A stretch of DNA of 64,000 nucleotides from Agromyces protaetiae (lineage in GTDB: Bacteria > Actinomycetota > Actinomycetes > Actinomycetales > Microbacteriaceae): NCBI RefSeq assembly GCF_004135405.1, contig NZ_CP035491.1, positions 1,798,001 through 1,862,000 on the forward strand, written 5' to 3'. The translations under genes and the position numbers were made by a program. The notes beneath the pieces were generated by a model. That model was given only the letters and a program-made list of their open reading frames with translations, ran no database searches and was not told the DNA's origin. Below are positions 5,320-48,742 of the stretch, piece by piece (position 1 is the first letter of the stretch; each line of letters begins with the position of its first letter).

Positions 5320-10416
<5,097 letters not shown>

Positions 10417-10608
10417 TCACTACACCCACACAGTTTTCGTAAGGCGTGTGTAGGTGGCCAAGATTTCTCGCGTCCACTCTGTGGTTCCCTTCAGACGGAA
10501 ACACACATACAACTGCACAGCAGAAACCACACACCCCAAAACACAAGAACCGGGGGTGTGTGCACCGAGACCACCAACCCCCACCCTGTGGGACGTGTTG
10601 GTTCTAGA
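10417..10608 (+). other. 23S-5S spacer with 3' arm of the 23S processing stem
   Basis: Non-coding spacer of about 190 bases. CTCGCGTCCAC at 10467-10477 pairs perfectly with 7169-7179, and the stem extends to 15 positions with one mismatch. No tRNA gene is present. Confidence 0.7.
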
Positions 10609-10726
10609 GTTTCGGCGGCCATAGCGCGAGGGAAACGCCCGGACACATTCCGAACCCGGAAGCTAAGACTCGCAGCGCCGATGGTACTGCAGGGGCGACC
10701 CTGTGGGAGAGTAGGACACCGCCGGA
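10609..10726 (+). rRNA. rrf: 5S ribosomal RNA
   Basis: About 118 bases. GTTTCGGCGGCCATAGCG starts the RNA and pairs with its 3' end (CACCGCCGGAC), as expected for helix I. The internal CGAACCCGGAAGCTAAG and the GATGGTACTGCA segment are typical of actinobacterial 5S rRNA. It is the last gene of the operon. Confidence 0.96.
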
Positions 10727-10736
10727 CACACATTCC

Positions 10737-10799: not shown

Positions 10800-12716
10800 A
10801 TGCCGAACCGGCTCGCAGATGCCATCAGCCCGTACCTCCGCGGACACGCGGACAACCCCGTCGCGTGGCATCCGTGGGGCGAAGCCGCGTTCGCCGAGGC
10901 ATCCGAGCGCGACGTGCCTGTCATCATCTCCATCGGATACGCGACGTGTCACTGGTGCCACGTCATGGCCCGTGAGAGCTTCAGCGATCCCGCAACCGCA
11001 CAGCTCATGAACGACGGATTCGTCTCGATCAAGGTCGATCGTGAGGAGCATCCCGACGTCGACGCGACCTACCTCGCGGCAGCGAGCGCATTCACCCGTC
11101 AGCTCGGCTGGCCGCTGACCGTGTTCGCCGACCCGAGCGGTCGGGCGTTCTACGCAGGCACGTACTTTCCGCCGGAGGCGGTGCCGGGAGTGCCGGCCTT
11201 CCGCGAGGTGCTCGCCGCCGTGTCGGAGGCATGGCACGAGCGGCGGCACGAGCTCGAGCAGACCGCAGCGGCTGTCGGTGAAGCACTTGCGGCGGCAGCC
11301 GCGGGGGCGGGCGGAGGGCGTCTGCCCGATCGTGCACAGCTCGACACCGCGGCCTCGGCATTGGCGGCGGAAGAGGACCAGGTCTACGGCGGATTCGGCG
11401 GCGCCCCGAAGTTCCCGGTCGCGCCCGTGCTCGCGTTCCTCGCCGAATCCGGTGCGGAGGGCCGTGGGCTCGCGCGCCGCACACTGCTTCGGATGGGGAA
11501 CTCCCCGCTGCGGGACAGCGTCGAAGGCGGATTCTTCCGGTACGCGACGCGGGCGAACTGGTCGGAGCCCCACTACGAACGGATGCTCTCGGACAACGCG
11601 CTCCTGCTCGACGTCGCCGCCGACCTGCTGCGCGACGGACGAGCGTCGAGTCCGACGGGTGAGTTCGACCTCACCGCGATCGCCGACGGGATCGTCAGGT
11701 TCCTGACGACGGTGATGCGGCAGCCGTCGGGCGGGTTCGCGAGCGCGCAGGACTCCGAGAGCGTCATCGAAGGCCGGCGCGATGAGGGCGGTTACTACCG
11801 GCGGGATGCCGCGGGGCGCGTCGCGCTCGCTCCTCCCGCGCTCGACGAGAAGATCCTCACGGGGTGGAACGGGCTCGCGATCGGCGCGCTTGCGCGGTAC
11901 GGCGCGCTCGTCGCGGGCAGCGCGGTCGGCGAGGTCGCGTTGAAGGCCGCGCGGAGCGCAGGGGCGTTCGTGCTCGACCACCACGTCAGGGCGGACGGCT
12001 CGCTCGTGCGGGCTTCGCTCGACGGGCGCATCTCGGAGGCACGTGCAACGCTCGAGGACACGGGCATGCTCGCGGAAGGACTGCTCGCGCTTGCGGTCGC
12101 GACGGGCGAGGTGCGCTGGGCGGCTTCCGCACGGGATCTCGTCGATGCCGCACTCACGGCGGGAGCAGAGGCAACGCCGGCATCGGTCTTCGCGGCGCCC
12201 GGCGGTTCCGATCCCGTGCTCGCGGCCCGCGGCCTGTCGCTCCCAGCCGACCCGGCCGAAGGCGCGACCCCCTCGGGGCTCACGGCGACCGCACGCGCGG
12301 CGTGGCTGCTCTTCGCGCTCGGTGCGGGCGACCGGTACCTCGAAGCTGCGACGACCGCACTCGAGGAAGTCGCACCGCTCGCGGTGCAGCGGCCCATCGC
12401 GTTCGGCGGCTCCCTCCGGCTCATGTCGGAGCTCGCGTCGCCACTCGTGCAGGTCGTGACAGTAGTACCCGACGGCGACGGCGACGATGAGCCGAGCCCC
12501 GAGCGGGAGCTCGTCGACGTGACGCGGCGGCACGAGGCATCCGTCGCCGTCGTCGTCACCGACGCGCAAGCGCGCGCCTTCGCCGAAGCCGGCTTCGAAC
12601 TCTTCGAAGGCCGCACCTCGCGCGACGGCGGTCCGCTCGCCTACCGGTGCGAAGCGTTCGTCTGCGCACTCCCCGTCGCCCGCCGCGCCGAACTCGAGGA
12701 ACTCGCCCGCGCATGA
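10800..12716 (+). CDS. Thioredoxin-domain protein of the YyaL/DUF255 (SPATA20-like) family
   Basis: A 638-residue protein. Residues 1-160 form the DUF255 thioredoxin-like domain with C50-HW-C53 (ATCHWCHVM), followed by the conserved DREEHPD segment and GGWP-like GWPLTVF. The remaining 470 residues form a glycan-epimerase-like (alpha/alpha)6 barrel, typical of YyaL. The cellular role of the family is poorly defined; a redox-related function is inferred only from the CxxC motif. The ATG is chosen because it lies seven bases behind a -10 box and homology begins at [12 protein letters not shown]. It overlaps the next gene by ATGA, implying translational coupling. Confidence 0.9.
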
Positions 12717-13393
12717 ACCCGCTCGAATGGCTCTTCAACGCGACGCTCGTGATCGGCGACCAGCAGATCCTGTGGCGCGAGATCATCGGCAACCTCTTCG
12801 GCCTCGCAAGCGCGCTCGGTGGCCTGCGGCGCAAGGTGTGGGCCTGGCCCGTCGGGATCATCGGCAACGCACTGCTCTTCACGGTGTTCCTCGGCGCCGT
12901 GTTCGGGACGCCGAACCCGGTCAACCTGCTCGGCCAGGCGGGCCGTCAACTTGTGTTCATCGCCGTCTCGATCTACGGCTGGGTGCAGTGGTCGCGCACG
13001 AAGAACGAGGAGCACGTCGCCGTGCAGCCCAAGTGGGCGAGCTGGAAGGCGCGCGTCGGCCTCGGGCTCGGCATGATCGGCGGCACGCTCATCCTCACTC
13101 CGATCTTCCGCGCGCTCGGATCGTTCGAACCCGTGTGGGCAGACGCCTGGATCTTCATGGGGTCGCTGCTCGCGACCTGGGGCATGGCGAAGGGCTGGAC
13201 CGAGTTCTGGCTCATCTGGATCGCCGTCGACCTCGTCGGAGTGCCGCTCCTCGTGAGCGCCGGATACTACGCGTCGGCGCTGCTCTACGCGTTCTACGGC
13301 GTCTTCACCTTCGTCGGCTTCTTGACCTGGATGCGCGTGCAACGCAGAGCACGCGAAGCGGAGCTCAGCGCAGGGACCTCACCGGGCGGGTAG
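12713..13393 (+). CDS. pnuC: PnuC-type nicotinamide mononucleotide/riboside transporter
   Basis: An integral membrane protein of 226 residues with about seven hydrophobic segments, the PnuC size and layout. Signature segments are visible: [14 protein letters not shown] in the N-terminal half and a second [13 protein letters not shown] segment near the C terminus. PnuC proteins facilitate uptake of a B3-vitamin precursor (nicotinamide riboside) without an energy source. It overlaps the upstream YyaL-like gene by four bases. A second, sequence-divergent PnuC is encoded at 31850 beside nadR; the substrate of this copy is therefore less certain, and related Pnu transporters move other vitamins. 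Confidence 0.85.
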
Positions 13394-31745: not shown

Positions 31746-31837
31746 GCCTCCATCCTGCGACGGGACGAGGGCTGCGGATGTCTCGGGGCCGGTCATCGTC
31801 CGACGAGATGCTGCCGAGTCATCCGCAGCCGACTCTC

Positions 31838-31849: not shown

Positions 31850-32497
31850 GTGGACGACGTCGCGAACTGGATGATGCAGCACTGGACCGAGGTGCTCGGC
31901 TTCGCGACGGGCGCCGCGTGCGTGCTGCTCGCGGCGCGCCGCAACGTGTGGACGTACCCCCTCGGCATCGCCAACAACCTCGTCTTCATCGCGCTCTTCT
32001 TCGGCACGGGCCTCTACGCGGCGGCGGGCCTGCAGATCGTCTACCTCGCGTTCGGCGTGCACGGCTGGTGGCGCTGGACGCGCGGGGAAGAGCACGACCG
32101 CCTGTTCGTCGCGCGCACGCCGCGCCGCGCGGTGCCATGGCTCGTGGGCGCGGGCGTCGCCGGCACGGCGCTGCTCTGGTGGGTGCTCGCGACGTTCACC
32201 GACTCGCAGGTCGCGCTCGCCGACGCCGCGACGACCTCGGCGAGCCTCGTCGCGCAGTACCTCTTGAACCGCAAGCGCATCGAGAACTGGCTCGTCTGGA
32301 TCGGCGTCGACATCGTCTTCGTCGGCCTCGCGCTCTGGACGGGCCTCTGGATCACGGCCGCGCTCTACGTGCTCTTCATCGGCCTGTGCGTCGGCGGCTG
32401 GCGCGGGTGGCGGAAGATCGAGCGAGAACAAGGCGTGTCGAGACATCCGGATGCCTCCGAGCCGACGCCGCACGAACCGGCGGGCCTCCGTGGCTGA
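31850..32497 (+). CDS. pnuC: Nicotinamide riboside/mononucleotide transporter PnuC
   Basis: A 215-residue membrane protein with about seven hydrophobic segments. PnuC features: RRNVWTYPLGIANN near the N terminus, GVHGWWRWT, and LVWIGVDIVFVGL. Transport is coupled to trapping by phosphorylation, and the next gene encodes the kinase/adenylyltransferase NadR, which makes the nicotinamide riboside assignment strong. It overlaps nadR by eight bases. The C-terminal tail after the last segment (EREQGVSRHPDASEP) is hydrophilic. Confidence 0.92.
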   Translation: MDDVANWMMQHWTEVLGFATGAACVLLAARRNVWTYPLGIANNLVFIALFFGTGLYAAAGLQIVYLAFGVHGWWRWTRGEEHDRLFVARTPRRAVPWLVGAGVAGTALLWWVLATFTDSQVALADAATTSASLVAQYLLNRKRIENWLVWIGVDIVFVGLALWTGLWITAALYVLFIGLCVGGWRGWRKIEREQGVSRHPDASEPTPHEPAGLRG

Positions 32498-33590
32498 GTT
32501 CGCCCACGGCCTTGTCATCGGCAAGTTCTACCCGCTGCACGCGGGGCACTCGCACCTCATCAGGAGCGCGCTCCGCGCGTGCGACCGCGTGACGGTCGAG
32601 GTGCTGGGTGCGAGCGTCGAGTCGATTCCGCTCGCGAGGCGCGAGGCGTGGCTGCGCGAGGAGCATCCGACCGCGTGCGTCGTCGCGGCGCTCGACGACG
32701 CACCCGTCGACTTCGAGTCCGAGACGGCGTGGGACGAGCACACGGCGCTCATCGCGTCGCTCCTCGACGCGCCCGTCGACGCCGTGTTCAGCTCCGACTC
32801 GTACGGCGAAGAGCTGGCCGCGCGGCTCGGCGCGACATGGGTGCAGGTCGACGCCGGCCGCACACGCAATCCCGTATCGGGCACCGCGATCCGCGCCGAC
32901 CTCGCGGGACACTGGCACGAGCTCGCACCCGCCGTGCGGGCCTCGCTCGCCGCGCGCGTCGTCGTGCTCGGCGCCGAGTCCACGGGGTCGACGACCCTCG
33001 CCGACGCGCTCGCCGAAGCGCTCGGCACCGTGTGGGTGCCCGAGTACGGGCGCGAATACTCAGGGGTGCGCGAGGGCGGACTCACTGCCGCGTGGCGGAG
33101 CGACGAGTTCGACCTCGTCGTCGATCGGCAGCTCGGGCTCGAAACATCCGCCCTGCGCACCGCGCCCAAGCCGGTCGTCGTGTGCGACACCGACGTGCTC
33201 GCGACGGCGATCTGGCACGAACGCTATCTCGGAGCGCCCGCGCCGCGCATCCTCGAGCGAGCCGCCGCACACCGGCCCGCACTCTACGTGCTCACGGGCG
33301 ACGAGATCCCGTTCGTGCAAGACGGCATGCGCGACGGCGAGCACCTCAGGCACGACATGCAGGATCGGTTCCGCGAGGTGCTCGCGGCGCAGCCCGTGCC
33401 GTGGCTCGAGGTGCGGGGGAGCGTCGCCGAACGCGTGGCGCAGGCGCTGCCCGCGATCGAGGCCGCGCTCGCCGAGGCGCACGCCTTCGCGGCGCCGCTC
33501 GAAGGGCGGCCCCATGCCGAGCAGGTCGCGCTGCAGGCCGCGGCGGCCCCTGTGCATGCATCTCCGCAGGCGACCCGGAGCGCGGGTTAG
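32490..33590 (+). CDS. nadR: NadR: NMN adenylyltransferase / nicotinamide riboside kinase
   Basis: A bifunctional enzyme of 366 residues that phosphorylates nicotinamide riboside and converts NMN to NAD. The N-terminal nucleotidyltransferase carries GKFYPLHAGHSHL (11-23) and the ..SGTAIRADL motif near 130. The C-terminal kinase has a P-loop GAESTGSTT near 160 where the usual lysine is replaced by serine; Walker B-like and lid segments follow (VCDTDVLAT, HLRHDMQDRF). No N-terminal repressor HTH is present, unlike enterobacterial NadR. The GTG start overlaps pnuC. Confidence 0.9.
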   Translation: MAEFAHGLVIGKFYPLHAGHSHLIRSALRACDRVTVEVLGASVESIPLARREAWLREEHPTACVVAALDDAPVDFESETAWDEHTALIASLLDAPVDAVFSSDSYGEELAARLGATWVQVDAGRTRNPVSGTAIRADLAGHWHELAPAVRASLAARVVVLGAESTGSTTLADALAEALGTVWVPEYGREYSGVREGGLTAAWRSDEFDLVVDRQLGLETSALRTAPKPVVVCDTDVLATAIWHERYLGAPAPRILERAAAHRPALYVLTGDEIPFVQDGMRDGEHLRHDMQDRFREVLAAQPVPWLEVRGSVAERVAQALPAIEAALAEAHAFAAPLEGRPHAEQVALQAAAAPVHASPQATRSAG

Positions 33591-33599: not shown

Positions 33600-35177
33600 A
33601 TGTCGGATCGTTGGCACCGGGTCTCCGCTTCTCCCACCGCGCCCGGGGCGGGCGACGGCACGCACGCTTTGACCGCCGAAGACCTCTTCCGCGAGCCCGC
33701 GTCGCTCGAGCCCGCGAGCGTCACGCTCGACGAGAAGCTGCGCCAGGCGTACTACTGGATCGTCAACCGCGCCGTCATCTCGCCGTACTACGACCTCGAG
33801 TTCTCGCCGCGGGCGCCGATGTCGTTCGAGCTCGGCGACGCGGGCGCGCGGATCACGCTGCCGACCGAGGCATCCTTCTCGTCGAACGTCCTCCTGCCGC
33901 TCCTGACCTTCGCCGTCGGCGGCAAATGCCTCCTCATCGGCGGCCCGGGCCGCGGCAAGACGACCGTCGCGGTCATCATGGGCGTCCTCGCTGGGTCGAG
34001 CGCCGAAGACGTCCGCCGCGGGGTGCAGCAGGGGCAGCCGCAACTCACGGTGAGCGACCTCGTCGGCATCCCGCTGCCGCGCGACCTCGTGAACGCGACG
34101 CGTCTCGCCGACATCGGCATCGCGTGGCGCGACTGGCTCACGCGGCCGGTCAAAATCGTCGACGAGTACAACCGCATCCCGACGAAGACGCAGTCGGCGC
34201 TGCTCACGATGGTCGCCGAGGGGTACGTCGAGAGCCACGACCAGATGCGCAGGACGAACCCCGACGGCGCCGTCGAGAGCTGGTTCTTCACGGCCAACGA
34301 CGACGCGGGCGGCGGCACCTTCCCCGTCATCCAGGCGCTCAAAGACCGGATGGATGTCACGGTGCAGTCGGCCGGGTTCAACAGCCGCTTCTTCGACGAG
34401 CTCGTGACGCGCATCGAGGCGGGCGAGAAGCCCGAGGAGCACGTGCCGGGCGAACTCGTCTTCACGCCCGACGAGCAGGAGGCGATGCGCGCGGCGATCC
34501 GCGCCGTGCCGATCCCGCGGCCGCTGCGTCGGCGCCTCGAGTTCTTCTTCAGCCATTTCGAGTTCGTCCAGCACGGCGGCCGCCGCTTCGAGTACCGCAC
34601 GAAAGACATCGTCACGACCTCGGGCGGGCGCGTCGGCGAGGTCATCGGCCAGAACTCGGGCGCCGATCTCGAGGTCGACCTCGGCGCGCAGACCCTCAAC
34701 GGGCTCTCGGTGCGGGCGCTCCAGACCCTCATCGTGTACGCGAAGGCGATCGCGTGGTTCCGCGGACGCGACGAGGTGTCGCTCGAGGATGTCGCGGCGG
34801 TGCTGCCGTTCGCGCTCCGCGGCAAGCTCCTGCCGAACCTCTCCCACCCGCGGTTCGACATCGGCGTCGAGCGCGAGCTCGCGACCGACACGACGAGCTG
34901 GCTCGGCGAGCTCTTCGCCGAGTCGTGCCGTCAGTACGACGCCCTCGGGCGCGACGCCGCCGACCCCGTCGGCGACCTGCTCGCGGGCCTCGAGCGCGGC
35001 CTCGAGGGGCTCTCGAAGGCCGAGACGCTCTCGACGATCACGGCCATCGAGGCGCGTCTCCGCACGATCGCGGGCACGGGCAAGCTCTACGGCCGCGACT
35101 TCGACGACCTCGTCGCGCTCAAGTACCTGCACCAGCGGTACACGGCCTACTTGCGGTGGCTGGAGCAGCGCGCGTGA
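33600..35177 (+). CDS. MoxR-family AAA+ ATPase, first gene of a five-gene vWA operon
   Basis: A 525-residue AAA+ ATPase. Walker A GGPGRGKT (114-121), Walker B IVDEYNR (from 186), and sensor-1-like WFFTANDD near 226 are intact. The N-terminal 95 residues and the 200-residue C-terminal helical region extend beyond a minimal MoxR protein. MoxR ATPases usually act with vWA proteins as chaperones for maturation or metal/cofactor insertion, and such a partner is encoded two genes downstream. The stop overlaps the next start by GTGA. Confidence 0.9.
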   Translation: MSDRWHRVSASPTAPGAGDGTHALTAEDLFREPASLEPASVTLDEKLRQAYYWIVNRAVISPYYDLEFSPRAPMSFELGDAGARITLPTEASFSSNVLLPLLTFAVGGKCLLIGGPGRGKTTVAVIMGVLAGSSAEDVRRGVQQGQPQLTVSDLVGIPLPRDLVNATRLADIGIAWRDWLTRPVKIVDEYNRIPTKTQSALLTMVAEGYVESHDQMRRTNPDGAVESWFFTANDDAGGGTFPVIQALKDRMDVTVQSAGFNSRFFDELVTRIEAGEKPEEHVPGELVFTPDEQEAMRAAIRAVPIPRPLRRRLEFFFSHFEFVQHGGRRFEYRTKDIVTTSGGRVGEVIGQNSGADLEVDLGAQTLNGLSVRALQTLIVYAKAIAWFRGRDEVSLEDVAAVLPFALRGKLLPNLSHPRFDIGVERELATDTTSWLGELFAESCRQYDALGRDAADPVGDLLAGLERGLEGLSKAETLSTITAIEARLRTIAGTGKLYGRDFDDLVALKYLHQRYTAYLRWLEQRA

Positions 35178-35890
35178 TCCGCAGGCCGGGCCATCTCGCG
35201 AATGCGTGGCCGGTCGTCGCCGACGTCGCGGCCGCGCTCGCGCGCGTGCGCGCGCTTTCGACGGCTCCGGATGACTCGTCCGACGCATCCCTCGACCTCT
35301 CCCTCGCCGCCGCCAACGTGGGGCGCGCAGGCGGCGACGGCGGTCGCTTCGCGTCGGCGCTCGACGCGGGCGTGCAGGTCGCGACCGACACGTCGGGGCC
35401 GATCGACCGGGCCCGACTGCTCGACCTCGTCGCGCTCGCGGGGTGGCGGTCGGGTGTGCTGAGGCTCCGCGACGACGCGCTCGCGCGGCTCGACATGCTT
35501 CGCCGCAGCCCCGCGAGAGTCGGGGCTGCGGCAGTGCTCGGGCTCGAGGCATCCGACCTCGACGCCTTCGCCGACCGGCAGCGCACCGACCGCTTCTGGT
35601 GGCCCGGCCGCGCCCGCCAGCGCGGCTATGTCGCTTCGTTCGGCGGGTTCCTCGGGCTCGACGGCCCGTGGCAGGCGCCGCCCGACGAGTGGCGGGCGCT
35701 CGACGTGCCGGGCGCGTTCGCGGTGCATGCCGGCGACGGCTGGTGGCGGCTCGACGCCGACGTGTGGGGGAGCGCGCTCGTGCGACTCGCGAGCGAGCCC
35801 GAGGCATCCGGTGCGCTCGACCCGAACGTGCAGATCGTCTGCCGTCCCGACTCCTACCTCGCGTGGATCCACGTTCGGGACGCGATGTGA
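35174..35890 (+). CDS. Unknown protein in MoxR-vWA operon (238 residues)
   Basis: No domain recognised. The protein is soluble, with a helical N-terminal half (ANAWPVVADVAAALARVRAL) and a Trp-rich C-terminal half (RFWWPGRARQRGY, GDGWWRLDADVW). It has no signal peptide. GTG overlaps the stop of the ATPase gene, and its own stop overlaps the GTG of the vWA gene, so it is almost certainly part of the same complex or pathway. Confidence 0.8.
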   Translation: MIRRPGHLANAWPVVADVAAALARVRALSTAPDDSSDASLDLSLAAANVGRAGGDGGRFASALDAGVQVATDTSGPIDRARLLDLVALAGWRSGVLRLRDDALARLDMLRRSPARVGAAAVLGLEASDLDAFADRQRTDRFWWPGRARQRGYVASFGGFLGLDGPWQAPPDEWRALDVPGAFAVHAGDGWWRLDADVWGSALVRLASEPEASGALDPNVQIVCRPDSYLAWIHVRDAM

Positions 35891-37889
35891 GCGTCGGTCG
35901 CGATCGTCGAATGCGCGAGGACTCCGCGTTCCCCGCTGTGCCGCTCGACGGCGAGCAGCGCGCCGCGTGGGAACGGGCCCAGGCGCTCTGGGGGTGCACA
36001 TGCACGACCCCGAACTCCGCCCGGGTGCCGGCCGCGAGAAGAAGGCGGCGGCGTGGTTCACGTTCCCGCCGTCGATCGTCGTCGACATCGCGATGGTCGA
36101 CGCCGACGGCGAGCACGCCGAGCTCGAGAGCCTCTTCGCCCACGAACTCGGCCATCACGTGCTCGCACCGAGCACGCGCATCGACTCGCTCAAGATCCTG
36201 CACCAGCTCGGCCGCGCGCTCGTCGCGTCGGGGCTCGCAGTCGATGCCGAGAAGGCCTCGTACCTCTCGAATCTCTGGTGCGATCTTCTCGTGAACGCCC
36301 GGGTCGGGGTGCTGCAGCGGGCGCGAGCCGCGGAAGCGACCGAAGCGTCCGACGCGGGCGAGCCTGTGACCGGCGAGGTGCGTGGGATCGTTCGCCGGAC
36401 GAAGCTCAGGTTCCGCATCGGCTTCGATGCCCCCGACCGGTTGTGGTGGGTGTATCGGCGCGCGTACGAACTGCTCTGGAGCCTGCCGCCCGGCACGCTG
36501 TGCCCCGTCGCGCCGCCGCCGCTGTCGCTCTCCCCGTCGGCGTCCGTACCGGGAAGCGCCGCCCTGTCGCCCGAGCGCCCGCTCGACGAGATCCCCGAGC
36601 GGTTCCGCGAGAAGGAGCAGAAGCTCCGCGCCGCACGCGAGGAAGCGCGACGGGTCGCCGCGCAGCTCGCCGAAGCGGCGCGCACGAGACCCGAGTTCGA
36701 CGCCGACCTCATCGCGGGGTTCGTGCGGACCTTCGCCGACGATCCGGTCGCGGGGGCCCTGCGCTTCGGTGTCGTGACGGCGCCCTACCTGCTCGAGTCG
36801 GCGGCGCAGGCGGGCGAAGACGGGTCGGGTCGCGGGAAGAGTTCAAGCCGTGGGAACGGTCCCGGGAGCGGGTCGGTTCGCGGCGACGGAGACGGTTTCG
36901 GCGGGTGCGCCGCCGACGACGCCCCGCCGACCGGTGACGAACTGAGTCGGGTGCTCGCCGACCGCAGGCTTCACGGAGAGATGCCCGACCGATCGGGTCG
37001 GATGCCCTCCGAGGGCGGCGAAGCTCCTCCGACGGATGCCGCGGGCCTGACCGGTGGTCAGGGGTTCGGCCTCGCCGACACCCTCGCGCTCTTCCCGACC
37101 GCCGACGCCGACGCCGTGTACGCCGCGTGGTACCGGGCGGCGGCCGCGCCGTGGGTGAAGCCCATCACCGAGCGTCGGCCGGCGAAGCCCGCTGCCGAGT
37201 TGCCGGGTCCGATCGAACTGTGGGATGCGGGCGACGAGCTCGCCGACCTCGACTGGGCGTCGACGATGCAGGCGGGCGCGACGATCATCCCGGGGGTCAC
37301 GACTCGGAAGCGCTCGTATCTCGACGACGAACCCGAACTCGACGAAGCGAGTGTCGACCTCGACCTGTACATCGACTCGTCGGGCTCGATGCCGAGCCCC
37401 GCCCAGGGTTCGCCCGCCGTGCTCGCAGGGACTATCCTCGCGCTCTCGGTGCTGCGCGGCGGCGGCCGCGTGCGCGTCACGAGCTTCTCAGGCCCCGGCC
37501 AGGTCGCGGGCTCCTCCCGGTTCACGCGCGGCCATGCCGAGGTCGTCGCGGGGCTCGCGCTCTTCTACGGCGGGGGGACGTCGTTCCCGCTCGACCTCTA
37601 CGGCGAGCGATACGCGAAACTCGCCCCGCCCCGCGAAGGCGAACGGCGCCACGTCGTCGTGCTCTCCGACGACGGGCTCTCGTCGATGTTCGGCGTCGGC
37701 AACGAACCCTATGCGGACGTCGCGCGCGACGTCCGCGCGAAGCTCACGACCGCGACCCTCGTGCTGCTCGGCAGGTGGGCGGGCGTGAACGCGCTCGCCG
37801 TCGAAGCCGGGTACGACGTGCGTTCGGTCGCGTCGATGAACGACGCTCCGCGCGTGTGCGCGGAACTTGCGGAGGTGCTGCATGGCTGA
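35887..37889 (+). CDS. Zincin-like metallopeptidase domain plus vWA domain protein, frameshifted
   Basis: About 667 residues after correction. The N-terminal domain has HELGHH (86-91), a zincin metal site, followed about 45 residues later by NLWCDLLVN, which resembles the third-ligand segment in COG3864/DUF2201-type proteins. A charged coiled-coil (REKEQKLRAAREEARRVA) and a low-complexity Gly/Ser linker follow. The C-terminal vWA domain has the complete MIDAS DSSGS near 497, GGGTSFPLD and VLSDDG. A run of five G at 35990-35994 breaks the frame: one added G joins ..RAQALWG to VHMHDPELRPG. Confidence 0.87.
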
Positions 37890-38571
37890 TTCGACCGTCG
37901 GTGCCGGTGCCGGTGCCGGTGCCGGTGCCGGTGCAGTGACCGTCGACGAATTGCTCGCCGCGTGGGCGGCACTGGCCGGCGACGAGGACGTGCAATGGGC
38001 GACCGCGCACCCCGGGCCCTCGGTCGCGTCGGTCGCCGCCCGGCTCGCGGCAGTGCCGCGGCCGTTCCTCGACGACGGGGTATCGGTTCCCGCACTCGCG
38101 GGGGATGTGCTCGGCGGGTCGGCCGCCGCGCTCGTCGCGCAGCGTCACTCGGGCGTACCCGCCGTGCGTCTCGGAGCGTCGATCGGCCTCTGGCTCGTCG
38201 CGAGCGAAGAGCAGCTCGGCGCGTTCGATCCGCCGCTCGCCTACGGCGCATCGGCGACGGGCGCAGGCTCGGCCGCGCTCGCCGTCGACGCGCTCGCGCT
38301 TCGCGTCGCCCCCGTCGCCGACCCCCTCGACTGGATCGCCGACGACGACCGGCGCGAAGAGGCGGTGCGCACCTTCCTGCTGTGGAGCGGGTTCCTTCCG
38401 GCCGGAGAAGACGTCGAGGCGGCACGTGCCGCGCTCGCGGCGCGCGACTCGCTCGCGCGCAACCGCGTCCTCGCCGAAGGCTACGCCGAACACCGCCACC
38501 GGGCCGAGATCGCCCGCCGCCTCGCCGACGCGCGGGCGAGGGAAGCCGCGGCGCGGTACAGCACGGAGTAG
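37882..38571 (+). CDS. Unknown protein in MoxR-vWA operon (229 residues, GA-repeat N terminus)
   Basis: No domain recognised. After MADSTV comes an Ala-Gly tract encoded by tandem GGTGCC units, then an Ala/Leu-rich, probably helical protein ending in a basic/acidic helix (EIARRLADARAREAAARY). The ATG lies eight bases before the vWA stop, and GGAGGTG precedes it inside the vWA gene. Tight coupling ties it to the same system. Confidence 0.8.
   Translation: MADSTVGAGAGAGAGAGAVTVDELLAAWAALAGDEDVQWATAHPGPSVASVAARLAAVPRPFLDDGVSVPALAGDVLGGSAAALVAQRHSGVPAVRLGASIGLWLVASEEQLGAFDPPLAYGASATGAGSAALAVDALALRVAPVADPLDWIADDDRREEAVRTFLLWSGFLPAGEDVEAARAALAARDSLARNRVLAEGYAEHRHRAEIARRLADARAREAAARYSTE
37900..37935 (+). 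repeat. Hexanucleotide tandem repeat (GGTGCC)5 plus GGTGCA
   Basis: Five perfect GGTGCC units and one variant inside the coding sequence, giving alternating Gly-Ala residues. Unit gain or loss keeps the frame and would only change linker length. Confidence 0.9.
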
Positions 38572-38574
38572 GCC

Positions 38575-39990
38575 GTGAGCGAGAGCCCGAATCCCGACAC
38601 CCGCGATGCGCTCGCGCTCGCCGAGTACCGCCCCGGAGCATCCGCTGTGCTCTCCGACGCCGAACGCTGGCCGACGCTGTCGACCGAGGGCGCCGCGCGA
38701 CTCGACCGCTGGCGGACGCATCCCCACGCGCCCGCGTGGGTGCACGCGACGGGCGACCGGCTGCGCGCCGATCAGGTCGAGCGGGCGTCGCGGCCGCTGC
38801 CGACCGAAGGTTGGCTCGACGACCATCTCGCGACCGCGCGTCGGCTCATCCGCTACCGGCGGCTCGCCGCCGAGGGGCGGCTCGCGCGGCTCGAGGATTT
38901 CCCGGTCGTCTCGCGTGCCGACCTCGTGGCGGATGTCGCGGCGTTCGTGCCGCAGGACGCCGACCTGTCCCGTCTCGTGCACGGGTCGAGTTCGGGGTCG
39001 ACGGGCGCCGCGCTGCAGATCCCCGACGATGTCGAGGAGGTCGCGCGCGGCTTCCACCTGCTCGTCGACCTCGTGCGTGCCGAGGGTGTCGACTGGCGGC
39101 CCGACGGCGAGCGGATGGCGCTCGCCCACCTCGTGCACCAGCGGCAGGCGTTCACGTACGTCTCGATCGTGAGCGGGTTCGGGCAGCGTGCGATGGTGCG
39201 GCTCAACCTGCACGAGAGTGCGTGGCAGGGTTCAGGACAGGCACCGGATGCCTCCCGCCGAGCATTCCTCGAAGCGGCCGACCCGCAGGTCGTCACCGGC
39301 AACCCCACGAGCCTCGCCGAACTCCTCGCGCCCGACCTCGCGGGTGCGGTGCGCCCGCTCGCGATCTTCTCGGGGGCGATGGCGCTGTCGGCGCCGCTCC
39401 GCGCCGAGCTCGAGCAGCGGTTCGCGTGCCCGGTGTTCGACGTGTACGGCCTCCACGAGACACGGCCGATCGCGGTGCGCACCGACGACGGGCCGTTCCG
39501 GGTGCTCGATCGGCGGGTGCACGTCGAGGTGCTCGACGGCGCCGGGGCGCCGGTGCCCGTACACGATGACGGCGACGGCGAGGTCGGCGAGCTCGTCGTG
39601 ACGGCGGGGGAGAACCCGCTGCTGCCCCTCGTGCGGTACCGCACGGGCGACTTCGGGCGGCTCGTGCGACTCCACGACGGCGCCCTCGCGATCGCCGACC
39701 TCGAAGGCCGCGAGCACACCCGGTTCGTCGCGGGCGACGGCCGGCTCGTGCCGTGCGTCGACCTCACCCAGCAGTTGCAGGCGCACGGCGCGCTCGGCTG
39801 GAGCGTCGCCCAGGCCGCGTCGGGCGAGGTCTCGGCGCACATCGCGGGCGGCGACGCCGGTGCCGTTCGGGCCGCGCTCACGGCGATCCTCTCGCAGCCC
39901 GTCGTCGTCGACCGGGTCGAACGCGTGTCGGACCTCGGCGAGGGCAAGCCCCGCCGCTACCGCAGCGATGCGGGCGAGGCATCCGCCTGA
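38575..39990 (+). CDS. PaaK-like adenylate-forming enzyme in MoxR-vWA operon
   Basis: A 471-residue member of the phenylacetate-CoA ligase/CapK branch of the ANL superfamily. The phosphate loop is HGSSSGSTG near residue 140, A5-like VYGLHETRPI near 290, A7 YRTGDFGRL near 355, and a C-terminal GEGKPRRYR segment. It should activate a carboxylate as an acyl-adenylate; CoA ligation, ligation to a protein, or another acceptor cannot be distinguished. The GTG is four bases behind the previous stop. No paa catabolic gene is nearby, so a phenylacetate role is unlikely. Confidence 0.82.
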   Translation: MSESPNPDTRDALALAEYRPGASAVLSDAERWPTLSTEGAARLDRWRTHPHAPAWVHATGDRLRADQVERASRPLPTEGWLDDHLATARRLIRYRRLAAEGRLARLEDFPVVSRADLVADVAAFVPQDADLSRLVHGSSSGSTGAALQIPDDVEEVARGFHLLVDLVRAEGVDWRPDGERMALAHLVHQRQAFTYVSIVSGFGQRAMVRLNLHESAWQGSGQAPDASRRAFLEAADPQVVTGNPTSLAELLAPDLAGAVRPLAIFSGAMALSAPLRAELEQRFACPVFDVYGLHETRPIAVRTDDGPFRVLDRRVHVEVLDGAGAPVPVHDDGDGEVGELVVTAGENPLLPLVRYRTGDFGRLVRLHDGALAIADLEGREHTRFVAGDGRLVPCVDLTQQLQAHGALGWSVAQAASGEVSAHIAGGDAGAVRAALTAILSQPVVVDRVERVSDLGEGKPRRYRSDAGEASA

Positions 39991-40075
39991 TCGCCCGCCC
40001 AACCGCTTGCCGAACGGTGCACAGCGCCTGATCAGCCGCCGCCGCTAACCTGGCGTGAGGCCGCCCAATGCGGCC

Positions 40076-40120
40076 CCGGACGAGGGCACCCAGTACCCGG
40101 AACGCGACAAGACTGGCACA
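40076..40120 (+). promoter_or_regulatory. Guanidine-III (ykkC-III) riboswitch
   Basis: The RNA matches the class consensus in order: CCGGACGAGG, GC, CCAGU, ACCCGG, then GACAAGAC and UGG. CCGG and CCGG form P1, and CCAGU pairs with ACUGG to form the pseudoknot. The following GGAG (40123-40126) and ATG (40136) of an SMR guanidinium exporter lie just behind it, so ligand binding probably frees or reshapes the ribosome binding site. Identified by eye from the known class. Confidence 0.88.
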
Positions 40121-40135: not shown

Positions 40136-40462
40136 ATGTCGTGGGTCGTGCTCATCCTGTCGGGCGTGCTCGAGGCGGTCTGGGCGACCGCGCTCGGCAA
40201 GAGCGAGGGCTTCACGAAGCTGTGGCCGTCGGTCGTGTTCGGTGTCGCGATCGTCGCGAGCATGGGCGGCCTCGCATTCGCGATGCGGGGCATCGAGATC
40301 GGCACGGCCTACGCCGTCTGGGTCGGCATCGGCGCGGCGCTCACGATCGCGTGGGCGATGGCGACGGGAGGAACGGATGTCTCGTGGGCGAAGATCCTGC
40401 TGTTGGTCGGCCTCGTCGGATGCGTCGTGGGACTCAAGCTCGTCGACGGCGCATCCCACTGA
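40136..40462 (+). CDS. gdx: SMR-family guanidinium exporter Gdx (SugE type)
   Basis: A 108-residue protein with four hydrophobic helices, the standard small multidrug resistance size. The substrate-binding glutamate is E13 in SGVLEAVWA, and the Gdx-like pattern GIEIGTAYAVWVGIGA is present. Gdx proteins exchange guanidinium for protons as dual-topology dimers. A guanidine-III riboswitch directly upstream supports a guanidinium role over general drug efflux. Only one SMR gene is present, as expected for a homodimer. Confidence 0.92.
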   Translation: MSWVVLILSGVLEAVWATALGKSEGFTKLWPSVVFGVAIVASMGGLAFAMRGIEIGTAYAVWVGIGAALTIAWAMATGGTDVSWAKILLLVGLVGCVVGLKLVDGASH

Positions 40463-47177: not shown

Positions 47178-48742
47178 ATGGCCGACGGCTCTTCGTTCTA
47201 CATCACCACGCCCATCTTCTACGTCAACGACGTGCCCCACATCGGGCACGCGTACACCGAGGTCGCTGCCGACGTGCTCGCACGCTGGCACCGCCAGGCC
47301 GGCGACGACACGTGGATGCTCACGGGCACCGACGAGCACGGCCAGAAGATCCTCCGCACCGCGACGGCCAACGGCGTGACGCCCAAGGAATGGGCCGACA
47401 AGCTCGTCCACGACGCGTGGAAGCCGCTCCTCGAGACGATCGACATCGCGAACGACGACTTCATCCGCACGACCGACGAGCGGCACGAGCAGAACGTGCA
47501 GAAGTTCTTGCAGAAGCTCCACGACGACGGTCACATCTACACGGGCGAGTACGAAGGCTACTACTGCGTCGGCTGTGAAGAGTACAAGCAGCAGTCCGAG
47601 CTCGTCGACGGCACGGGCGAGTACGAGGGCCAGCTCGTGTGCGCCATCCACTCGAAGCCCGTCGAGCTCCTCCACGAGAAGAACTACTTCTTCCGCATGT
47701 CGGCGTTCGCCGAGAAGCTCCTTGCGCTCTACGAGGAGCGCCCCGATTTCGTGCAGCCCGAGTCGGCGCGCAACGAGGTGCTCTCGTTCGTGCGTTCGGG
47801 GCTCGATGACCTGTCGATCTCGCGCTCGACGTTCGACTGGGGGTCAAGGTCCCGTGGGACGAGACGCACGTCGTCTACGTCTGGTTCGACGCGCTCCTGA
47901 ACTACATCACGGCGGTCGGCTACGGGCAGAACGATGAGGAGTTCGCACGGCGCTGGCCGGCCCAGCACATCGTCGGCAAAGACATCCTGCGCTTCCACGC
48001 CGTCATCTGGCCGGCCATGCTCATGGCGGCCGGGCTCGAGGTGCCGCGCGGCGTCTTCGGGCACGGGTGGCTGCTCGTCGGCGGCGAGAAGATGTCGAAG
48101 TCGAAGCTCACGGGCATCGCCCCCGAGCAGATCACCGACGTGTTCGGCTCCGACGCGTTCCGGTTCTACTTCCTCTCGGCCATCTCGTTCGGTCAAGACG
48201 GCTCGTTCTCGTGGGAAGACCTGGCGGCGCGCTACCAGGCCGAGCTCGCGAACGGCTTCGGCAACCTCGCCTCGCGCGTCGTCGCGATGCTCTCGCGCTA
48301 CACCGAGGGCGCAGTGCCCGCAGCGCACGAGGCGAGCGTGACCGACGCGGATCTCGCGATCCGCGAGGTCGAGCAGCGGGCGACGGATGCCTCGTGGTCG
48401 GCCGCCGGCCGCCTCGCGATCCACGAGGCGATCGCCGCCGTGTGGGAGCTCGTCGACGCGTTGAACCTCTACATCACGAACGAAGAGCCGTGGACGCTCG
48501 CGAAGGACCCCGCGAAGCGCGAGCGTCTCGACACGGTGCTCGCGACGGCGTACCACGGGCTCGGCACGCTCGCGGTGCTGCTCTCGCCCGTGCTGCCCAA
48601 GGCGACGGCGAAGCTCTGGAGCGCGCTCGGCGGCGCGGGCAACGTGCGCGAGCAGCGCATCGACCGGGCGAACGAGTGGGCGGTCGGCGAGCGGGTGACG
48701 CCGCTCGAGGCGCTCTTCCCGCGCGTCGAGGTCACCGAGTGA
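47178..48742 (+). CDS. metG: Methionyl-tRNA synthetase, frameshifted in this sequence
   Basis: Class I aminoacyl-tRNA synthetase charging tRNA-Met. HIGH is at 21-24 (PHIGHAY), a zinc-knuckle-like YYCVGCEEY near residue 130, and KMSKSKLTG lies in the C-terminal half. The frame breaks at five G at 47837-47841: one added G joins ..RSTFDWG to VKVPWDETHVVYVWF and gives 521 residues, close to mycobacterial MetS. The enzyme is essential, so the break is very likely a base-calling error unless another metG exists outside the window. Confidence 0.93.

Follow-up and report, generated by a model that had tools for sequence, protein, structure and literature searches.

MoxR-type AAA+ ATPases encoded beside proteins with a von Willebrand factor A (vWA) domain are widespread, and most of these pairs have, to our knowledge, no known client. 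In the NorQ/NorD and CbbQ/CbbO systems, the gene for the MoxR ring adjoins that of a vWA protein with a complete metal ion-dependent adhesion site (MIDAS). The NorQD pair inserts metal (PMC13036017), and for CbbO the client engages the MIDAS metal by a carboxylate, Asp82/Glu75 of rubisco, a mode that the authors predicted for similar systems as well (PMC4660213). Proteins that combine an N-terminal metallopeptidase-like domain with vWA next to MoxR are found in jumbo phages (PMC7824862) and in the COG3864/DUF2201 type, and VMAP and other MoxR-vWA ternary conflict systems unite MoxR and vWA with a third conserved protein (PMC7159879). Here we analyze a seven-gene unit in a 64,000-nucleotide stretch of the Agromyces protaetiae genome (contig NZ_CP035491.1, positions 1,798,001 to 1,862,000; hereafter the window), in which MoxR and vWA genes are joined by genes for two orphan proteins, a PaaK-like adenylate-forming enzyme of the ANL type, and PnuC and NadR. 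The latter two import nicotinamide riboside (NR) and convert it to nicotinamide mononucleotide (NMN) and nicotinamide adenine dinucleotide (NAD), and the conserved linkage with them points to an undescribed NAD-linked pathway.

The unit shares parts with each of these systems and differs from all of them. Compared with NorQD and CbbQO, its vWA domain is fused to a zincin-like domain, the orphans, the ANL enzyme, and NR salvage are added, and no nitric oxide reductase or rubisco genes lie alongside. The zincin-vWA protein is one that we take to resemble DUF2201 proteins; no DUF2201 model matched any of its 24 homologues at an E value of 0.01, and its partners differ from those of the COG3864/DUF2201 and jumbo-phage types. 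Unlike VMAP systems, the unit has no swappable effectors and includes ANL and PnuC-NadR genes. No VMAP, iSTAND, FtsH, or beta-propeller component was identified in an analysis that did not search VMAP models directly, and we do not claim membership of the VMAP family for the unit. Its PnuC-NadR genes form the usual pair of transporter and bifunctional nicotinamide mononucleotide adenylyltransferase (NMNAT)/kinase; they differ from other such pairs in sharing an operon with MoxR and ANL genes and, in actinobacteria, in a kinase domain without the Walker A lysine. A first-pass annotation made from the sequence of the window had found no described system to which five of the genes could be matched, and we likewise found no open-access paper that unites MoxR/zincin-vWA, the two orphans, ANL, and PnuC-NadR.

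All seven genes lie on the forward strand. The first, pnuC (31850..32497; PF04973, E = 8e-52), passes TIGR01528 with 78.9 bits against a cutoff of 42.45. It overlaps nadR (32451..33590, with a start possibly at 32490; PF13521, E = 2.5e-30) by 47 bases in the longest open reading frame (ORF) calls, and nadR ends 9 bases before g1. The full-length match of NadR to TIGR01526 (E = 5e-54) scores 183.8 bits, below the 341-bit equivalog cutoff. Next come g1 (33600..35177), encoding a 525-residue MoxR AAA+ ATPase; g2 (35174..35890), encoding the 238-residue orphan X; g3 (35887..37889), encoding the zincin-vWA protein; g4 (37882..38571), encoding the 229-residue orphan Y; and g5 (38575..39990), encoding the 471-residue ANL enzyme. 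ORF and Pfam analyses agree with the first-pass annotation on these five genes. The overlaps of 4 to 8 bases that it described are present (4 bases at g1/g2 and at g2/g3, 8 bases at g3/g4), while its four-base gap between g4 and g5 measures 3 bases. Its five-gene unit is correct as far as it goes but too small, for it overlooked the upstream pnuC-nadR pair, which is the main functional clue. We place the end of the unit at 39990 because a guanidine-III riboswitch (40055-40120) and a SugE-type SMR exporter (40136-40462), presumably a guanidinium exporter, follow downstream.

Searching 84,980 species genomes with g1 gave 65 related stretches representing 63 loci. When the window proteins were mapped onto these loci, practically all complete actinobacterial loci showed g1 to g5 in one order, with typical junctions of -4, -4, -8, and -8 bases, in Microbacterium, Agromyces, Agreia, Frigoribacterium, Cryobacterium, Nocardioides, Mycolicibacterium, and other genera. 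Of all the loci retrieved, 40 carry all seven genes and 19 others the five; a few loci in this tally are second copies of one place. This order and these overlaps recur in about 60 loci, which is more than chance. The first-pass annotation would have given up a conserved five-gene system if most related clusters lacked the PaaK-like gene or the orphans; nearly all complete actinobacterial clusters have all five. The five genes are also kept in a proteobacterial metagenome-assembled genome (MAG) (L061) and a delta-proteobacterial MAG (L064). Among the Planctomycetota, one locus (L128) has all five with inserted genes and another (L125) has X-g3-Y-ANL at the start of a contig. The unit spans at least three phyla.

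Within this range the unit is sparse. The window genome, a single 3.68-Mb contig, is at the protein level nearest to Microbacterium and Agromyces among named relatives; 5 of 100 relatives carry the unit, as do 2 of 60 genomes in a Mycobacterium-group sample and 2 of 396 in a phylum sample. The phylum sample contributed one further case, the distant actinobacterium G278 (locus L109), which has all five genes and a g1 product of 54% identity. Across 38 loci, the seven proteins vary together in pairwise identity, with correlations of 0.76 to 0.94. Several Microbacterium-group species, including those of L105, L106, and the window, carry the unit at a common chromosomal site. A mobile island was considered and rejected on the basis of this shared site and the lack of any tRNA gene in the window. 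Divergent arrangements were also seen. The unit is rearranged in Mycolicibacterium houstonense (L040, 5998-14353), with g3 upstream of MoxR and g4 as two partial copies. Two planctomycete loci (L129, 266-4725; L130, 3369-14574) hold a version with two orphan genes between g3 and the ANL gene, and L130 adds MoxR, radical-SAM-like, asparagine-synthetase-like, and glycosyltransferase-like genes, so named from sequence appearance only.

The pnuC-nadR pair stands directly upstream of g1 in about 40 loci. In Planctomycetota the order differs, being Y-ANL-pnuC-nadR in L100, L102, and L123 and ANL-pnuC in L128; in two genomes with Y-ANL-pnuC-nadR (G115 and G116), MoxR-X-g3 is found elsewhere (L062 and L063). 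The association extends to whole genomes. Among the 100 relatives, NadR is present in 5/5 genomes with the cluster and in 5/95 others (Fisher P = 3e-6), and among Planctomycetota it is present in 6/7 genomes with a strong ANL match and in 14/239 others (Fisher P = 9e-7). Of the carriers tested, five from Agreia and five from Mycolicibacterium, every one has an unlinked NadR, against a background of 8/60 in the Mycobacterium-group sample, and pnuC lies beside the unlinked nadR in the four loci examined (L096-L099). G278 has both NadR and PnuC, encoded about 3 kb apart. Three delta-proteobacterial MAGs without NadR and PnuC (G118-G120) showed no Y-ANL pair beside the MoxR locus, in a comparison of the locus rather than the whole genome.

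The window NadR retains the NMNAT motifs GKFYPLHAGH and SGTAIR, and its Walker A motif, GAESTGSTTL, lacks the lysine. Actinobacterial NadRs, linked or unlinked (L090-L099), read GAESTG(S/T)TTL, and those of planctomycetes and proteobacteria read GPESTGKTTL. The change was rejected as a hallmark of the system, since unlinked actinobacterial NadRs share it. Two observations concern relatives of these proteins. The window encodes a second PnuC-family transporter (12713-13393), 31% identical to the linked PnuC and adjoining a thioredoxin-domain protein; its relatives are common in the genus. In delta-proteobacterial G117 (L101, 5190-10503), nadR belongs to an operon-like run that also holds genes for a large AMP-binding protein, an asparagine-synthetase-like protein, and a GMC-type oxidoreductase, which has the look of a biosynthetic cluster.

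The g1 product is a MoxR AAA+ ATPase by its matches to PF07726 (AAA_3; 28 bits, cutoff 27) and PF17863 (AAA_lid_2; 37.8 bits, cutoff 22.7) and by the motifs GPGRGKT, VDEYNR, and TAND; its N-terminal LDEKLRQAYYWIVN extension is conserved. X has the invariant residues W91, R92, R99, P144, and G157. As the first-pass annotation had advised, the two orphans were structure-modeled, and both models are confident (pLDDT of 92 for X and 91.5 for Y), but neither led to a family or a solved fold. X is predicted to be alpha-helical in its N part and beta in its C part, and Y to be all alpha. Searches of Pfam, NCBIfam, and PADLOC gave no usable family for either, and Foldseek returned no match with an E value below 0.6. 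VIA-align gave nothing for Y; for X its best Z score was 4.7, to WD40 fragments, with no convincing solved relative. This weak beta-propeller resemblance of the modeled C part (Z up to 4.7) probably reflects only a common arrangement, and the absence of structural matches does not establish that X and Y have new folds.

The g3 product contains HELGHH and DSSGSM...T...SD in the window. In 24 homologues from three phyla, HExGHH and NxxxDxxxN are invariant, as are MIDAS residues D497, S499, S501, and D595, and T565 is kept in at least 90%. Judging from these motifs, NxxxDxxxN probably contributes its Asp as third metal ligand. With its complete MIDAS and its position beside MoxR, the vWA protein places the unit among MoxR-vWA remodeling systems. 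No confident Pfam family was found for g3 in the window, and 3 of the 24 homologues gave a weak Peptidase_M48 match. The first-pass annotation was right about HELGHH and the complete MIDAS and missed that g3 is not a single ORF here: from GTG at 35887 the frame reads to ...WERAQALWG and is then broken by one base in a run of G at about 35988-35993, leaving about 632 residues from GTG at 35994 in the frame that ends at 37889. Relatives are uninterrupted at this site, where they read LWGV/IxMHD, and g3 of L106 is intact (667 residues) with 4-base and 8-base overlaps. The methionyl-tRNA synthetase gene metG (47178-48742) likewise carries a one-base frame break. Because breakage of the essential metG is improbable, both breaks are probably assembly indels; a genuine lesion in g3 is possible.

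Y ends in a conserved helix, confidently predicted in the model, and a tail of approximately (E/A)EAA(A/S)(R/K)xxxE-COOH, which for the g4 product is also given as (K/R)EAAARYSTE-COOH. Glu is its last residue in 65 of 67 loci. We rejected the overlap with the g5 start as the sole cause of this Glu. It is kept in nine loci where the g5 start does not overlap g4, and in the window as well, and in L107 the g5 start overlaps g4, yet Y ends in Val; the Glu therefore appears to be selected at the protein level. In nearly all loci found, the Y and ANL genes are neighbors, and in most of the cases examined the genome that encodes Y also encodes an intact MIDAS protein. The ANL enzyme matches PF00501 (31.9 bits, cutoff 29.9) with conserved core motifs, and its nearest solved relatives are PaaK-like ligases (profile match to 4r1l, E = 3e-21). 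It has the ANL fold and core motifs of the phenylacetate-CoA ligases 4r1l and 2y4o, PaaK-like 6siw, and the DVU_1553 family and differs from them in having the dedicated partner Y and in scoring far below every equivalog cutoff; against TIGR02155, the phenylacetate-CoA ligase equivalog, it reaches 34.6 bits where 646 are needed.

With the parts and their coupling observed in the genomes, we propose for their chemistry a single pathway of three modules, a tentative reading that we consider possible rather than probable. Module A (MoxR, X, and the zincin-vWA protein) would resemble NorQD/CbbQO as a machine that uses ATP for remodeling or insertion. In module B, the ANL enzyme would activate an acid with Y as its own helical partner, and module C (PnuC and NadR) would supply NMN and NAD from imported NR. 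We read the terminal Glu of Y as a docking carboxylate because it is near-invariant and because Y adjoins the ANL enzyme and shares its genome with a MIDAS protein. By analogy with Asp82/Glu75 of rubisco and CbbO, this carboxylate would sit on the MIDAS metal of g3, and Y would be an adaptor that delivers the ANL enzyme, or a Y-ANL complex, to the machine. Using ATP, the MoxR ring might then remodel its ANL client, clear an inhibitor, or load a metal or cofactor. The zincin domain may carry metal or act as a processing peptidase. The acid that the ANL enzyme adenylates would be a carboxylic acid, probably aryl like those of other PaaK-like enzymes. On the most economical view, a pyridine nucleotide derived from imported NR would be substrate, cofactor, or product of this reaction, or else the client itself would depend on a pyridine nucleotide. 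A narrower version, which we think quite unlikely, has NadR supply NMN or NAD for an NR-derived prosthetic group that the ANL enzyme builds on or with Y and that the MoxR/zincin-vWA machine inserts into a client, with or without metal, the C-terminal Glu of Y being the docking point. The first-pass annotation had suggested a modification or maturation machine; the conserved MoxR/zincin-vWA pair and acyl-adenylating enzyme support this in part, and it remains the best class for the unit.

The strong coupling to NadR and PnuC in two phyla, with a peptidase-like domain fused to vWA, would also suit NAD homeostasis or quality control, in which the machine remodels or degrades NadR, PnuC, or another NAD enzyme as demand changes and a small signal or modification from the ANL enzyme marks the client. 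We regard this as unlikely: genomes that lack the machine can have a pnuC-nadR pair (e.g., L091, L092, L094, and L095), so neither protein depends on it, and in Planctomycetota it is Y-ANL, not module A, that adjoins pnuC-nadR. The same neighborhood might instead reflect nutrition, with NR salvage and an independent aryl-acid operon co-selected by a plant, soil, or sediment lifestyle and never in mechanistic contact. Carriers are indeed mostly environmental bacteria, and the parts are separate in Agreia and Mycolicibacterium. This explanation is nevertheless improbable, given that two phyla show physical linkage in different orders, that NadR is present when unlinked, and that identities correlate over the 38 loci.

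Other readings put Y or the machine as a whole at the center. The ANL enzyme could adenylate the C-terminal carboxylate of Y and attach Y to a target; alternatively, the zincin could cut off the conserved peptide at the C terminus of Y. In either case MoxR-vWA would handle the tagged or processed product. The near-invariant terminal Glu, the near-constant Y/ANL adjacency, and the pairs of zincin and conserved-C-terminus precursor known beside vWA-MoxR systems (PMC7159879) agree with such conjugation or processing. Y, however, is modeled as a folded helical protein with a confidently predicted C-terminal helix rather than as a small tag. Known PaaK-like enzymes, moreover, use small acids, and we consider this proposal quite unlikely. 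The first-pass annotation also raised a conflict system, which as an antiphage or intermicrobial system would resemble the VMAP-type MoxR-vWA ternary systems. Patchy distribution (5/100 relatives, 2/396 in the phylum sample) and the frequent use of NAD as a currency in phage conflict speak for it. Against it, PADLOC matched neither the five proteins nor the 24 g3 homologues, no g1 homologue was found in the phages, plasmids, and viral contigs searched, there is no variable effector, and the parts evolve in step, are smoothly coinherited, and keep a constant chromosomal site in the Microbacterium group. We rejected a conflict system on the PADLOC, phage, plasmid, and viral-contig results and leave it only a slight probability.

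Several points weigh against the three-module pathway itself. Module A lacks an adjoining Y-ANL pair in L062, L063, L067, and L069, and may therefore serve another client; in G115 and G116, the genomes of the first two, Y-ANL is located elsewhere. The draft MAG G714 has the ANL gene and no NadR match. The genome counts for NadR ignore phylogeny, and carriers cluster in few clades; the linkage could come from shared lifestyle rather than shared chemistry. Kinase activity of actinobacterial NadR is uncertain given the missing Walker A lysine, and in many loci the overlapping g5 start partly favors the terminal Glu codon of g4.

Upstream of the unit, an inverted repeat (31770..31830; 17-nucleotide arms, 94% complementary and 27 nucleotides apart) lies between pnuC and a divergent isochorismatase-family gene and is a possible operator. 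No NAD riboswitch scored above the gathering threshold upstream of pnuC, where a lax threshold gave chance matches only, and a consensus scan for promoters and terminators, uninformative at 72% G+C, found nothing. Elsewhere in the window, a low-G+C stretch at 5320-10727 is an rRNA operon (16S-23S-5S).

Among MoxR-vWA systems, this unit brings its own candidate clients, together with two confidently modeled folds for which no match was found. The proposed placement of the terminal Glu of Y on the MIDAS metal of g3 is a sharp hypothesis, open to test with purified proteins. If the link to NR is mechanistic, NadR and PnuC would do more than feed the general NAD pool, and the unit could bring to light a pyridine-nucleotide cofactor or modification that is new and common to distant phyla.

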